Shown here: piece by piece, positions 13,061-29,889 of the stretch | Layout of the letters: the number at the start of each line of letters is the position of its first letter | How positions within the stretch are numbered: the first letter of the stretch is position 1 | Made by a program: the position numbers and the translations under genes | The notes under the pieces: model-generated | Database searches by the model: none | Told to the model about the DNA's origin: nothing | What the model saw: only the letters and a program-made list of their open reading frames with translations | IMG/VR virus record: IMGVR_UViG_3300025466_000101 | Location: 1-35,934 of that record | Strand: one strand, 5' to 3' | Source of the DNA: a virus | DNA length: 35,934 nucleotides

Positions 13061-13090
13061 ACCCCCGCTTTAGACTTTTGCGGGGGTTTT
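13061..13090 (+). terminator. Strong terminator between convergent gene blocks
   Basis: ACCCCCGC (13061-13068) pairs with GCGGGGGT (13080-13087), followed by TTTT on the plus strand. It closes the small-gene/SSB transcript. The opposite strand has the same hairpin but no U tract. Confidence 0.85.
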
Positions 13091-13095
13091 GTCTA
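13071..13095. promoter_or_regulatory. Palindrome site A (TAGACt-N13-TGTCTA)
   Basis: It matches 11 of 12 half-site bases of the palindrome found intact at 15278 and 18743. It overlaps the loop and 3' arm of the 13061 terminator, so it may be coincidental. Confidence 0.35.
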
Positions 13096-13105
13096 ACCCT
13101 TTACT

Positions 13106-14724: not shown

Positions 14725-15009
14725 TTATTTCCCTCCCCACATCTCTACTAATTCACTTGCGGAAGGCATTACAAAATTGAGCGCGTGACAATCTACGCAC
14801 AAATCGTTAGGGAATACGGCTAGAGGGTGGATTACTGTCTTGCACTTGGTACATTCCACACCATCATAAATACGCGAAGAGCGATTATGGAGAGTCACAC
14901 ATCTTTCACATACCGCTAGTGATACTTGCTCTCCGTTGTCATAGACAAAGAGGCGCGAAGTAATTGACTTATACATTCCACAAAGTTCACACATTGAAGG
15001 ATTCCCCAT
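14725..15009 (-). CDS. Multi-CxxC zinc-ribbon protein
   Basis: A 94-residue protein with four Cys pairs in order: CELC (7-10), CERC (34-37), CTKC (53-56) and CVDC (72-75), giving two zinc ribbons in tandem. The remaining residues are polar. Such proteins often bind nucleic acid or host proteins, but no specific family is clear. Its start lies within the 3' end of the 14987-15076 membrane microprotein frame, indicating coupled translation. Confidence 0.68.
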   Translation of the reverse strand: MGNPSMCELCGMYKSITSRLFVYDNGEQVSLAVCERCVTLHNRSSRIYDGVECTKCKTVIHPLAVFPNDLCVDCHALNFVMPSASELVEMWGGK

Positions 15010-15076
15010 TCTCTAAAGAGAGAAGAAGCGCAAAGAGCGAAATGGGGATAATTATTGCTAGCAGATAGATAAACAT
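14987..15076 (-). CDS. Single-span membrane microprotein (29 aa) under a hairpin-masked RBS
   Basis: The minus-strand frame reads MFIYLLAIIIPISLFALLLS followed by nine polar residues: a hydrophobic helix with a short acidic tail. A clear ribosome binding site (GAAAGG, 7 bases before ATG) lies in the arm of the 15082-15103 hairpin. It overlaps the next gene by 23 bases and is the first gene of the minus-strand block. The hydrophobicity, the ribosome binding site and its hairpin support a real gene. Confidence 0.58.
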   Translation of the reverse strand: MFIYLLAIIIPISLFALLLSLENGESFNV

Positions 15077-15081
15077 TTCAA

Positions 15082-15103
15082 GCCTTTCAGATAGTGGAAA
15101 GGC
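15082..15103 (-). promoter_or_regulatory. Hairpin sequestering the ribosome binding site
   Basis: On the minus-strand transcript GCCTTTC and GAAAGGC form a perfect 7-bp stem with an 8-base loop. The 3' arm is the ribosome binding site of the 29-residue membrane protein, so the closed form should block its translation. Confidence 0.65.
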
Positions 15104-15139
15104 ACTCGCGCCTCTCCTTCATCTCCCATTTTAGGGGCA

Positions 15140-15149
15140 TAGATTACGC
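15140..15149 (+). promoter_or_regulatory. TAGATTACGC motif, possible promoter -10 into the gene-free region
   Basis: It is identical to the -10 plus discriminator of the promoters at 4999 and 7771. No good -35 is seen at 16-18 bases upstream. If active, transcription would start near 15152 and run into the structured region. Read on the other strand it contains TAATCT, so the direction is uncertain. Confidence 0.35.
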
Positions 15150-15277
15150 AAAGGCAAGTACTCAAAAACTACGGCGCGGGGCAATCTTCATGACGCTTGG
15201 GGTGTGAAAGGGTAAGAATTACAGGGTGTAATCACCCCGCCCCGTTTCTTGATAGGGCTTAGAACCGATTCTAAGGC

Positions 15278-15302
15278 TAGACATTTATAGTTCCGATGTC
15301 TA
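15278..15302. promoter_or_regulatory. Palindrome site B (TAGACA-N13-TGTCTA)
   Basis: A perfect 6+6 inverted repeat with 13 bases between, inside the gene-free region and directly after a 7-bp hairpin. The same perfect site occurs at 18743. Confidence 0.5.
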
Positions 15303-15330
15303 ACCCTGGCAAATTGAGCGTGTGGTGAGA

Positions 15331-15370
15331 GTGGTGGCAAGTGGTGGCAATAATTCCCCTAAGTGGTGGC
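15331..15370. repeat. Short direct repeats GTGGTGGC
   Basis: GTGGTGGC occurs at 15331, 15341 and 15363, with a related GTGGTGAG at 15322. Spacings of 10 and 22 bases place the copies on about the same helix face. They could be protein-binding iterons or part of the RNA domain closed by the 11-bp long-range helix. Confidence 0.5.
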
Positions 15371-15766
15371 GAAACTTGTATCCTGCTTGGAAGTTAGGTG
15401 TGGCGAGGGTTCACGCTCAATTGGGAGATAATTGGAGGGTTTTGGGGATTACTCAATTTCCCACCTAATCCTTACATATTCACACTTAACCACTCACAAT
15501 CCATTCAACACTTAACCATTACCTATTGATGATCAATCTTTTCTGCTTACGGTTCATTCAAGTATCAGACTTTTATTTTTCACCACTCATTCAGCCACCA
15601 TCACTCACCTATTCTTCTAGGTATCTCTTGAGGGTCATGTATCTCTCAAGCGTGAGTGTGCTAACTCTAAACCTCTACTTGAGGGTGAGGGTTTGACTGG
15701 GTGAGTGCCGAGGCTGGGTGCGTGTCTATATTTGATTATCACCATATCACTCATATGTCATGGCGT

Positions 15767-15795
15767 AATCTATTCACACCGCTACCCAAGGTCAG
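15767..15795 (-). promoter_or_regulatory. Possible minus-strand promoter
   Basis: On the minus strand CTGACC, a 17-base spacer and TAGATT are followed by ACGC, the same -10/discriminator as the plus-strand promoters. It would transcribe leftwards towards the 15076-13106 minus-strand genes with a leader of about 680 bases. Confidence 0.42.
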
Positions 15796-15958
15796 TTGCT
15801 TTGAAGAACGCTATTAAGTAATTCATTTCAATCAATCTTTGTTTTCAGATGTACGCTCTTATCGCGTGGTGACAAACCAAACCACCCCACACACTCACTA
15901 GCGTTTTGCCTCTCTAAAGTTTAGATTCGTGCCTAGCCCGAAGTTACGCTTTCATGTA

Positions 15959-16014
15959 ATCATCTAGTTGGGTTACTCGGGCGTAGGTAACTTGTGTTAC
16001 GCCTACCAGATGAT
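15959..16014 (+). ncRNA. Main bulged hairpin of the 3' structured domain
   Basis: The outer helix ATCATCT/AGATGAT (15959-15965 with 16008-16014) encloses GTAG-GTAAC-TTGT-GTTAC-GC-CTAC (15983-16006), a 9-bp stem with a 2-base bulge. An alternative inner pairing GGCGTA/TACGCC also exists, so the element could switch between folds. Confidence 0.5.
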
Positions 16015-16146
16015 CTCGCTTCTAAAGGAAGCTAATCTTTGATAACTCAACCAAGGCTTTTGAGCAGGAGCAGGTTGCCTCATCTAACGAGGATTAGAGC
16101 CGGTGCGAAACGGCCTCAGACTTTCATAGAGCTAGCCTGACAACTC

Positions 16147-16338
16147 TTACCTTGATAGCCGCTTTTTATTGCGGTTTGTTTCCTTTAAGGCACTTGAGAA
16201 TAGCATCTTTTTCTCTGCCTTGCTTAGATCATTCCATGTCTTAGCGTTTGGGTCTATACGAAGTTTATCTGGTATAGGGCGTTGAACACCCATGACCGCA
16301 CCCATCTTAGCAGACAGGGATAACTTCTTCTGAGCCAT
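16147..16338 (-). CDS. Small basic hypothetical protein
   Basis: A 63-residue protein. I chose the ATG at 16338, since the longer frame to 16455 would overlap the divergent 16393 gene. It begins MAQKKLSLSAKMGAVMG and has an amphipathic helical segment (TWNDLSKAEKKMLFSSALKE) with a Lys/Arg-rich tail. The protein-like composition supports coding, but its 3' end contains the plus-strand terminator at 16157, so it is uncertain. No family recognised. Confidence 0.48.
   Translation of the reverse strand: MAQKKLSLSAKMGAVMGVQRPIPDKLRIDPNAKTWNDLSKAEKKMLFSSALKETNRNKKRLSR
16157..16182 (+). terminator. Plus-strand terminator after the structured region
   Basis: AGCCGC (16157-16162) pairs with GCGGTT (16171-16176), followed by TGTTTCCTTT. 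The asymmetry of the T-rich tail indicates plus-strand termination, even though the annotated gene here is on the minus strand. Confidence 0.55.
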
Positions 16339-16392
16339 AAGCAAAACCTTATCACAAGTGCTAGGATTTAGATTACTTACGAAAGGAAAATC

Positions 16393-16614
16393 ATGGGCTA
16401 CATTAAAAGACTTTTTAGTAATGGTCGAAGTGTGTATGAGTGGGATGGTATTCACACCCCAGCAGTAAATACCAATGCTTCATTTGAAGCAACAATCCTT
16501 AAGGAAGTTATTGTTGAAAAAGAAACTGATTACTCTCATCTACAACTCAACAGAGAAGATTTGATTACAGTCCTATCACGCATAGCAGATGCGCTAGAGG
16601 AAATTGCGTATTAA
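16393..16614 (+). CDS. Small hypothetical protein
   Basis: A 73-residue protein with a strong GAAAGGA ribosome binding site. The N-terminus (MGYIKRLFSNGRSVYEWDGI) and an acidic helical C-terminus (EDLITVLSRIADALEEIAY) are clear, with no Cys pair. It is divergently arranged to the 16147 gene and the first of a short run leading to the terminase. A TAGATT motif at 16369 could be its -10, but no well-spaced -35 is seen. Confidence 0.62.
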   Translation: MGYIKRLFSNGRSVYEWDGIHTPAVNTNASFEATILKEVIVEKETDYSHLQLNREDLITVLSRIADALEEIAY

Positions 16615-16834
16615 GTTGGAAGAACATACCCATAAGTATTTTGTTATCTGCCCAAGATGTAAGTGGGAGTCTGAACATTACCCGTGTCCAGATGGAGTAA
16701 TGATTGCTTTGGGGATTTGGACAAAGGACTTAGTAGATCATGTCAAAATAAAACATAGAATTTATTATACCTATTCAGGTATAAAGAAAACCAGCATCAA
16801 AAGTAAGGTACTGTGTAGTTGTGACAGGAGCTAA
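16604..16834 (+). CDS. Small C2H2-like zinc-finger protein
   Basis: A 76-residue protein from TTG at 16604 (AGAGG just upstream, overlapping the previous stop); a TTG at 16616 is an alternative start. VICPRCKWESEH and then KDLVDHVKIKH give Cys2 and His2 ligands in zinc-finger order, with an inserted loop. The C-terminal Lys-rich part and a late CSC pair are extra. It lies immediately before the terminase and overlaps its start; a DNA-packaging accessory role is possible but unproven. Confidence 0.58.
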   Translation: MRIKLEEHTHKYFVICPRCKWESEHYPCPDGVMIALGIWTKDLVDHVKIKHRIYYTYSGIKKTSIKSKVLCSCDRS

Positions 16835-18722
16835 TCTACGCGTTGATGATGAGCGTTGGCGTAAATATGCCAAAGCAATCAAAGATGGACATTCCCAGCG
16901 TACTGCCGCAAAGATGGCTGGCATTAGCCACTCAACAGTTATGCGCCAGTATCGCACTCCCACATCTCGCCTTAACCGCGTTCTTGGAGAAGCAGGGTTT
17001 GAATCTGCCGGCGTTATCAACATTGAAAAGATTAAAGGCGATGCCGAAAAAGCAATCAATGATTTCGGGTATTTTCGCCAACGCTACTTTGCTCGCTCGA
17101 CTTCTCCTTGGGCTGAGGAAGCAGCGTATAAAGTTCTTGCTCTAGCCGAAAGCCCTAACAAGGAATATGTAGTTGTAAACTGCCCACCTGGTGTTGGTAA
17201 GTCCACATTTTTTACCCATGATCTTCCAGTATGGCTTGCCGTTCGCAATCGCGCTCGCCGTACCATGATTGGTTCTCGTACCGCAGGACAAGCAACCAAA
17301 TACACAGGTCGTATTCGCCGTACCTTTGAACGCGTAACCCCAGTCAAAGCCGACCCAGTTCTATTGGAAAAGGGTTTAGCCAAAGATGCTGAATCCACGC
17401 TCATTACAGACTTCGGCAGGTTCAAACCTTCCAACTCTGATCTTTGGCGGCTAGATGAATTTATCTTGGCTCAAGATGGTGGAGTTGCGGTAGATGATAA
17501 AGAACCAAACTTTGTTGCCTACGGAATGGATTCTGGATTTTTGGGTGGTCGCTTTGATACCGTTATCTGGGATGACCTTGTAGATAAGACAAATATCCGC
17601 ACAGTTGAAGCCCGCGAGAATTTGATTAACTGGTGGGAAACTGAAGCTGAAACTCGCCTTGACCCTGGCGGTCTTTTGATTCTACAAGGGCAGAGAATGT
17701 CGCCCGATGACCTTTACCGATACGCGCTTAATCTCGTAGATTGGTCAGAAGAATTTGAAGAAGAACCAGAGAAGGCTCCCAAGAAGTATCACCACATTGT
17801 TTACAAAGCGCATTATGATGACTTATGTAAAGCAGAAAATAACGGGGGTGTTCATCATGGTAACTACCCTGATGGGTGTTTGCTGGATAGTTACCGTTTG
17901 CCCTGGCGTGAATTATCACGGGTAAGAAAAAGCAAACTCGATAAGTTCCTTACCCTTTATCAGCAAGAAGATGTAGATGCCGAAGCCTCTCTTATTCAGC
18001 AAGCATGGATTGACGGGGGCATTGACAAAGACGGGGTTCAATCTCAGGGATGCTGGGATGCCACCAGAAACATTGGAAATTGGCCTAAAGGAGTTATGGG
18101 GTATTCGGTTGTAACCGCCGACCCATCTCCGACAAAATATTGGGCAGTTCAATGGTGGGCTTATTCCCCTGATACCAAAATGCAACACCTTGTTGATTTA
18201 GCCCGAACCCCTATGGAAGCACCTGACTTCCTTGATTACAACCAAGACACCCGAACCTATACGGGACTTTTAGAAGAATGGTGGGTTCGTTCTAACGATC
18301 AAGGTCACCCTTTTACCTACCTCATAGTGGAGGCAAACGCGGCTCAACGGTTCATGTTGCAATATGACCATTTTAAGCGGTGGTCTGCTATTCGTAATGT
18401 GAACCTAGTTCCCCATCAGACAAACCGGAACAAATCTGATGAATCGTACGGGGTTCAAACATTAGCCCCGCACTACAAAGCTGGTCGCGTTCGCTTCCCT
18501 GGCGGTGGAACTTACCTTGAGTCTAAAGCCGTTATGAAGCCGATGGTTAAGGAACTTATTCAATGGCCTGAAGGTTCTACCGATGACACGGTTATGGCGC
18601 ATTGGTTCTTGATTTGGAACGCACCCCATCTCTTTGATGGAAATAATGGACAGGTCTATCAATTCTCCAATCGCCCAGCGTGGGTACAGAGAAATGCTAA
18701 TCGCTTCAAGCGAGGCGTCTAA
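16821..18722 (+). CDS. terL: Terminase large subunit with N-terminal HTH
   Basis: A 633-residue packaging motor, longer than many. Residues 20-45 (SQRTAAKMAGISHSTVMRQY) form a helix-turn-helix, as in small terminase subunits. The ATPase has Walker A CPPGVGKS (about 121-128) and Walker B TVIWDD (about 247-252), then the coupling segment LILQGQRMS. The C-terminal RNase H-like nuclease shows Asp in VTADPS (about 433), Glu in IVEAN (about 503) and Asp in STDDTVMAHW (about 587). GTG start. No separate small terminase is recognised, so this HTH may supply DNA recognition. Confidence 0.93.
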   Translation: MTGANLRVDDERWRKYAKAIKDGHSQRTAAKMAGISHSTVMRQYRTPTSRLNRVLGEAGFESAGVINIEKIKGDAEKAINDFGYFRQRYFARSTSPWAEEAAYKVLALAESPNKEYVVVNCPPGVGKSTFFTHDLPVWLAVRNRARRTMIGSRTAGQATKYTGRIRRTFERVTPVKADPVLLEKGLAKDAESTLITDFGRFKPSNSDLWRLDEFILAQDGGVAVDDKEPNFVAYGMDSGFLGGRFDTVIWDDLVDKTNIRTVEARENLINWWETEAETRLDPGGLLILQGQRMSPDDLYRYALNLVDWSEEFEEEPEKAPKKYHHIVYKAHYDDLCKAENNGGVHHGNYPDGCLLDSYRLPWRELSRVRKSKLDKFLTLYQQEDVDAEASLIQQAWIDGGIDKDGVQSQGCWDATRNIGNWPKGVMGYSVVTADPSPTKYWAVQWWAYSPDTKMQHLVDLARTPMEAPDFLDYNQDTRTYTGLLEEWWVRSNDQGHPFTYLIVEANAAQRFMLQYDHFKRWSAIRNVNLVPHQTNRNKSDESYGVQTLAPHYKAGRVRFPGGGTYLESKAVMKPMVKELIQWPEGSTDDTVMAHWFLIWNAPHLFDGNNGQVYQFSNRPAWVQRNANRFKRGV

Positions 18723-18742
18723 AGATTATTAGTGGTAACATT

Positions 18743-18767
18743 TAGACAGTTATTTCTCCATTGTCTA
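18743..18767. promoter_or_regulatory. Palindrome site C upstream of the virion gene block
   Basis: TAGACA and TGTCTA with exactly 13 bases between, in the only gap between the terminase and the late structural genes. It may be an operator or part of a late promoter (TAGACA as -35, TCTAAT near -10). Confidence 0.55.
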
Positions 18768-18786
18768 ATGAATTGAGATACCCCTC

Positions 18787-29857: not shown

Positions 29858-29860
29858 GTT

Positions 29861-29889
29861 TAGACAAAAGAACGCGTTATGTGTATTCT
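29861..29889 (+). promoter_or_regulatory. Palindrome site D and likely capsid-block promoter
   Basis: TAGACA (29861-29866), 13 bases, then TGTGTA (11 of 12 half-site bases match sites B and C). Read as a promoter it is TAGACA, 17 bases, TATTCT (29884-29889). It lies right after the internal-protein genes and before the scaffold. Confidence 0.55.

Follow-up and report, generated by a model that had tools for sequence, protein, structure and literature searches.

Comparative evidence for a structured RNA upstream of the terminase gene in uncultivated lake phages, with a probable compact form in marine phages

The window analyzed here, which is an IMG/VR virus record taken at its full length of 35,934 bases, almost certainly carries a structured non-coding RNA from 15692 to about 16176 on the plus strand, to judge from its comparison with related phages. 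The explanation that best accounts for the findings as a whole, to which we assign a probability of roughly 0.7, is that this is a phage gene for a folded RNA, read from the plus strand; within that reading it would be a separately promoted unit where the late genes begin. A preliminary description had drawn attention to a kilobase without genes, and this is real: between a minus-strand ORF with its 5′ end at 15009 and a minus-strand ORF of 63 aa at 16147 to 16338, no convincing gene was found from 15010 to 16146. The RNA that it proposed, from 15104 to 16182, was drawn too long; the conserved RNA is the second half, and the first ~590 bases are a regulatory or intergenic region that is not kept as RNA. 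We place the 5′ end where conservation starts and the 3′ end at a terminator-like hairpin. The features are as follows.

15277..15303, unstranded: dyad CTAGACA-N13-TGTCTAA, a possible promoter or operator (comparison with relatives)
15692..16176, plus strand: predicted structured non-coding RNA, ~485-490 nt (conservation, covariation, no common ORF, leave-out HMM matches in order)
15692..15776, plus strand: 5′ conserved block, which starts TTTGACTGGGTGAGTGCC (leave-out HMM match, alignment A3)
15941..16014, plus strand: predicted pseudoknot core (two-sided changes, best-scoring pairs under the phylogenetic null)
16053..16148, plus strand: 3′ domain (alignment A2, leave-out match)
16147..16338, minus strand: 63-aa ORF that separates the RNA from the rightward genes (L004 has a related ORF, as does L006 by eye)
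16157..16176, plus strand: terminator-like hairpin, then TGTTTCCTTT (terminator search)
16355..16386, plus strand: promoter-like block (TGC-TAGGAT, of TGN-TANNNT type) and ribosome site of the ORF at 16393 (counterpart in relatives)
16821..18722, plus strand: terminase large subunit, TerL (phrog_38, E 2e-55)

Relatives were gathered by means of TerL, which gave 24 related loci, and nearly all of those with enough sequence have a common non-coding element on the same strand in the 2.5 kb that precede TerL. This element, in the 15 lake phages related to the window, is ~450-600 nt long, lies on the plus strand upstream of the large terminase gene, and is 68-93% identical between relatives over up to 580 nt. 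Within the window, BLAST picks up no more of it than 15690-15777 (15405-16820 against the near relative L004, which is 94% identical to the window), and the remaining correspondence was seen in a MAFFT alignment. To exclude circularity, HMMs were built from relatives only, with the window and L004 withheld. These recovered the 5′ block at 15689-15775 (E 1.9e-13), the pseudoknot core at 15921-16020 (E 1.6e-5) and the 3′ hairpin at 16058-16092 (E 0.05, weak on its own), all 3 in order and on the plus strand. Where the 3′ model detects the RNA there is one copy per genome, placed where the leftward genes diverge from the rightward ones, which encode the terminase and structural proteins. No relatives by DNA were found among the named phages of GenBank, where the nearest TerL proteins (from Streptomyces, Microbacterium and other phages) are less than 30% identical, and the literature that was searched contained no earlier description of this RNA.

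The evidence that this conserved element folds comes from compensatory change. The core consists of an outer helix (15959-15965 with 16008-16014), an inner helix (15980-15985 with 15998-16003) and a pseudoknot in which strand 15941-15947 pairs with 15987-15993; in alignment A1, two-sided changes are seen in 17 of its 20 pairs, with a covariation of 0.690 compared with 0.205 when shuffled and at most 0.165 with slid partners. The 3′ domain, which comprises a CCUC-AUCUAAC-GAGG hairpin at 16078-16092, a second hairpin at 16099-16114 and a degenerate one at 16115-16141, has two-sided changes in 12 of 20 pairs (alignment A2; covariation 0.435 versus 0.171). Covariation in homologues had been proposed as a check, and covarying pairs were indeed found with a home-made, R-scape-like null test: a G-test with average-product correction, in which each null alignment redistributed the reconstructed substitutions over the tree, starting from 15 partly redundant lake sequences. 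Among 149,331 column pairs, each of the top 8 is base-paired without exception (15/15 or 14/14); they fall in the 3 interlocked core helices, in a pair that flanks these and in a 3′ hairpin. Their E-values run from 0 in 60 null sets to about 1, so the pairs are not each significant singly, and the weight lies in all 8 of them pairing. Conservation is highest in the 5′ block, which has no local fold, RNAalifold giving only 2 pairs; a local hairpin there was therefore rejected for want of structure. In L006 and L009 the 5′ block and core are retained and the 3′ domain is swapped for another sequence, and thus the RNA appears to be modular.

Folding energy has to be read differently for the alignment and for the single sequence. 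For the whole alignment it is -72, versus -10.8 (sd 4.2) for column shuffles, and the minus-strand alignment folds equally well. The window on its own is unremarkable against its shuffles (z -1.1 for 15690-16178 and -1.3 for 15104-15689), and thermodynamic stability, being unexceptional, was dropped as evidence. Because the region folds no better than shuffles, the hairpins listed in the preliminary description prove nothing by themselves. Most of them are present as sequence, and most lie outside the RNA. The 7-bp stem with a CCGA loop is found at 15258-15275, away from the conserved RNA; the 11-bp inverted repeat (AATTGAGCGTG/CACGCTCAATT) exists at 15312 and 15412, is likewise outside, and is not conserved. 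In L004 its 5′ arm is missing and only the 3′ arm is retained, so that neither the repeat as a long-range helix, which was rejected, nor the alternative folds suggested through CTCAATT, whose second copy does exist at 15452, have comparative support. Only the bulged hairpin at 15959-16014, which is part of the conserved core, and the small 3′ hairpins around 16078-16114 coincide with the conserved RNA; the two pseudoknot strands were absent from that list. A plus-strand terminator had also been placed at 16157, and a terminator-like hairpin is there, as one of 3 such sites found against 1.5 expected.

As for the strand, counts of G-U against A-C cells are neutral in the lake clade (7 versus 7, and 5 versus 6). 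In the marine form described below, G-U exceeds A-C by 33 cells to 8, which supports the plus strand there. The assignment of the window RNA to the plus strand thus rests on the marine form, the positions of the promoter-like sites and the order of the genes.

Neither a gene nor a known RNA family explains the element. A coding frame conserved across the homologues was looked for, and no shared one was found in any frame; the longest ORFs differ among the loci in place, strand and sequence, and on these grounds a hidden gene was rejected. Rfam 15 gave no match at gathering scores in the window and 7 relatives, and no credible match under relaxed thresholds (E<=10 for the window and L007; E<=5 for L126). 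This disposes of GOLLD, ROOL and OLE, the identities considered at the outset, and equally of pRNA, group I and group II introns and tmRNA. ARAGORN detected 0 tRNA and no tmRNA in the window, and the notion that the 3′ hairpin presents an anticodon-like loop was dropped, as its triplet varies (CUA, CUG, CAA). With covariation in homologues, no common frame and no Rfam match, the proposal of a large structured phage RNA on the plus strand, possibly of a new class, has held up.

A wider TerL alignment brought in 80 loci, and with them marine phages, TerL ~45% identical, in which the late operon is preceded by a compact form, ~280 nt long, that has the same motifs at its ends. With the lake 3′ model, R2, L145 is found at E 0.001; the model also matches L126, L137 and L149 weakly (E 0.2 to 4.7), in each case on the plus strand 1.0-1.35 kb before TerL, and all 4 have a 5′ motif of the GGGGRTGTGCC type. 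A search for both motifs found the pair on the plus strand upstream of TerL in some 20 marine loci. The marine alignment has a covarying long helix of its own (CTCCGTG/CACGGAG, CTCTATG/CATAGAG, GTCGTGCCC/GGGCACGAC), with covariation in 12 of 23 pairs. A marine-only model (R3) detects further marine forms strongly (L098, E 7e-9) and lake forms weakly, at E 0.1-0.6, at the right places; the lake core model (R1) found nothing in the distant and marine loci. Since R3 is strong on marine and weak on lake forms, we consider it probable, not proven, that the two are homologous. In cellular genomes, a single MAG contig has both TerL and the compact RNA: PARV01000048 (L072, RNA at 2607-2725, TerL 46% identical), which is labeled Gammaproteobacteria and is probably a phage contig binned with a bacterial MAG. 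A more ambitious and quite tentative proposal is that all of these belong to one ancient RNA family, a further ornate phage RNA beside GOLLD and ROOL, in which a small conserved scaffold (5′ GGGGRUGUGCC, 3′ CCCNUCURACGGG with hairpins, and a covarying long helix or pseudoknot) carries variable inserts and which might have an essential role, at the origin or in a switch to late transcription and packaging, across a large family of uncultivated lake and ocean phages.

The surroundings of the RNA contain several kinds of repeated site. Directly upstream of the 5′ block, some lake relatives have a dyad, TTAGACA-N13-TGTCTAA, and the others a pair of SOS-type boxes (CGAACRCYTGTTCG). The window dyad lies 390 nt upstream of the RNA, which leaves the true 5′ end of the window RNA uncertain; several relatives also have a site ~400 nt upstream. 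The 27-bp dyad occurs in intergenic gaps of the window at 13070-13096, 15277-15303, 18742-18768 and 29860-29886 (0-2 mismatches), with 7 of 100 shuffles reaching 4 sites at 3 mismatches, and it recurs in related phages; it is possibly a phage promoter, operator or stoperator. At least 2 SOS-type boxes (CGAACRCYTGTTCG, CGAACGTATGTTCG) lie directly upstream of the RNA in L005 (8511-8567), L008 (9244-9300) and L021 (3177-3233), and such boxes are seen upstream of it in L126 and L137 too, which suggests SOS-linked expression and an actinobacterial host. Downstream, the next start codon is preceded in most lake loci by a block that contains a TGN-TANNNT element and has AAAGG at its end; its counterpart in the window, at 16355-16386, comes after the opposite-strand ORF. 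This small gene (63 aa in the window, without a family match; 54 aa in L006, about -940 to -776 from TerL) looks like an insertion separating RNA and late genes. The window also has, upstream of the RNA, iteron-like repeats at 15330-15371 and 15478-15523, namely three copies of AGTGGTGGCA and two direct repeats of ~20 bp around CACTTAACCA. In the 450 bp before the RNA, many lake loci (L003, L007, L008, L010, L012, L016 and others) have a DnaA-box-like repeat, TTATCCMCA, mostly on the plus strand and ~70-fold enriched relative to the rest of the loci. These repeats, first noticed by eye and then counted, exceed expectation there in 10 of 13 lake loci (41 versus 5.7 expected over all loci), and the region is possibly a phage origin. 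A tyrosine integrase is present in 3 of 8 lake records.

How, then, might the RNA act? On the preferred reading it would be transcribed at lytic onset from a phage- or SOS-controlled promoter just upstream (the dyad, or the paired SOS-type boxes of relatives), as its own unit with its own 3′ end, and the folded RNA, not a peptide, would act as the phage turns to late transcription and packaging. That it forms its own unit is argued by the separate promoter-like block that follows it and by the opposite-strand gene that, in the window and L006, stands in between. Whether it works separately, as opposed to being a cis leader or an origin RNA, is a point on which we lean only slightly toward separate action, at well short of even odds. 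Not far behind is the possibility that the RNA is the 5′ leader of the late operon, transcribed together with the terminase and structural genes and acting in cis, by attenuation or by polymerase modification resembling put-type antitermination. The RNA is always on the same strand at the start of the rightward genes and, in the marine loci inspected and several lake loci, ends shortly before the first start codon even though the first gene differs. Against it, as a matter of sequence pattern, a promoter-like block separates the RNA from the first gene in the lake clade (in the marine form one was seen by eye), the window and L006 have the opposite-strand gene in between, and the window has a terminator-like hairpin there too; in addition, 280-600 nt is large for an element of this kind. 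Somewhat less probable is a replication-origin RNA, a primer or activator transcript like ColE1 RNA II or the RNA-based prophage origins of mycobacteriophages (PMC7157519). The upstream excess of DnaA-box-like repeats, mostly in one orientation, would fit, as would the lack of DnaB and DNA polymerase A in 8 near-complete phages, which therefore probably use host replication proteins; but the motif was picked out by eye before the count, and few or none of the boxes are seen at the window, at L004 and L006 or at the marine form, the window having other repeats at that place.

That the RNA serves the terminase motor, in the manner of phi29 pRNA, is improbable. Wherever the RNA occurs TerL follows downstream, but the marine RNA tracks the start of the operon rather than TerL, from which it can be up to 2.7 kb away; moreover, Rfam gives no pRNA match, and packaging in headful and cos phages generally does without an RNA. 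There remains the very slim chance that there is no RNA at all and that the conservation is of DNA (operators, an origin) or of an undetected gene. The 5′ block, with no local fold, could be a DNA site; the compensatory changes that pervade both the core and the 3′ domain, and the want of a common ORF in any frame, speak for a folded RNA instead.

What this adds is a phage RNA outside all Rfam families at a predictable position, where the late genes begin. Since it seems to occur in widespread aquatic phages, its structure, position and covariation are open to test, and it illustrates that such RNAs hide in the annotated "intergenic" space of uncultivated viruses. To our knowledge, there are few large structured phage RNAs, and no function is established for the best known of them; ROOL and GOLLD form homo-oligomeric RNA cages. 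The pRNA of phi29, of 174 nt, is of a type needed for DNA packaging, and the likeness is that of a phage RNA possibly linked with packaging; it differs in that its model does not match and that the lake and marine RNA is not tied in position to TerL. OLE differs in that its covariance model gives no match. The prophage origins of RedRock, Alma and LadyBird, ~600-670 bp in actinobacterial phages, express a non-coding RNA (PMC7157519), and by description they are alike in being divergent in sequence without a common ORF; those origins, however, adjoin parABS, and the text of that paper gives no secondary structure. ROOL, with a solved structure of 659 nt (PMC12286853), is likewise phage-borne, structured, several hundred nt long and of no established function, but does not match in Rfam and is often near tRNA islands, whereas the window RNA is at the start of the late operon. 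GOLLD (RF02032), often longer than 800 nt compared with ~490 nt here (PMC12286853), is frequently, not universally, near tRNA genes, whereas the window RNA has no tRNA island, and its covariance model finds neither the window, even at E 10, nor the relatives; what the two have in common is that they are large, structured and phage-borne, come from aquatic habitats, and set variable parts beside conserved ones.
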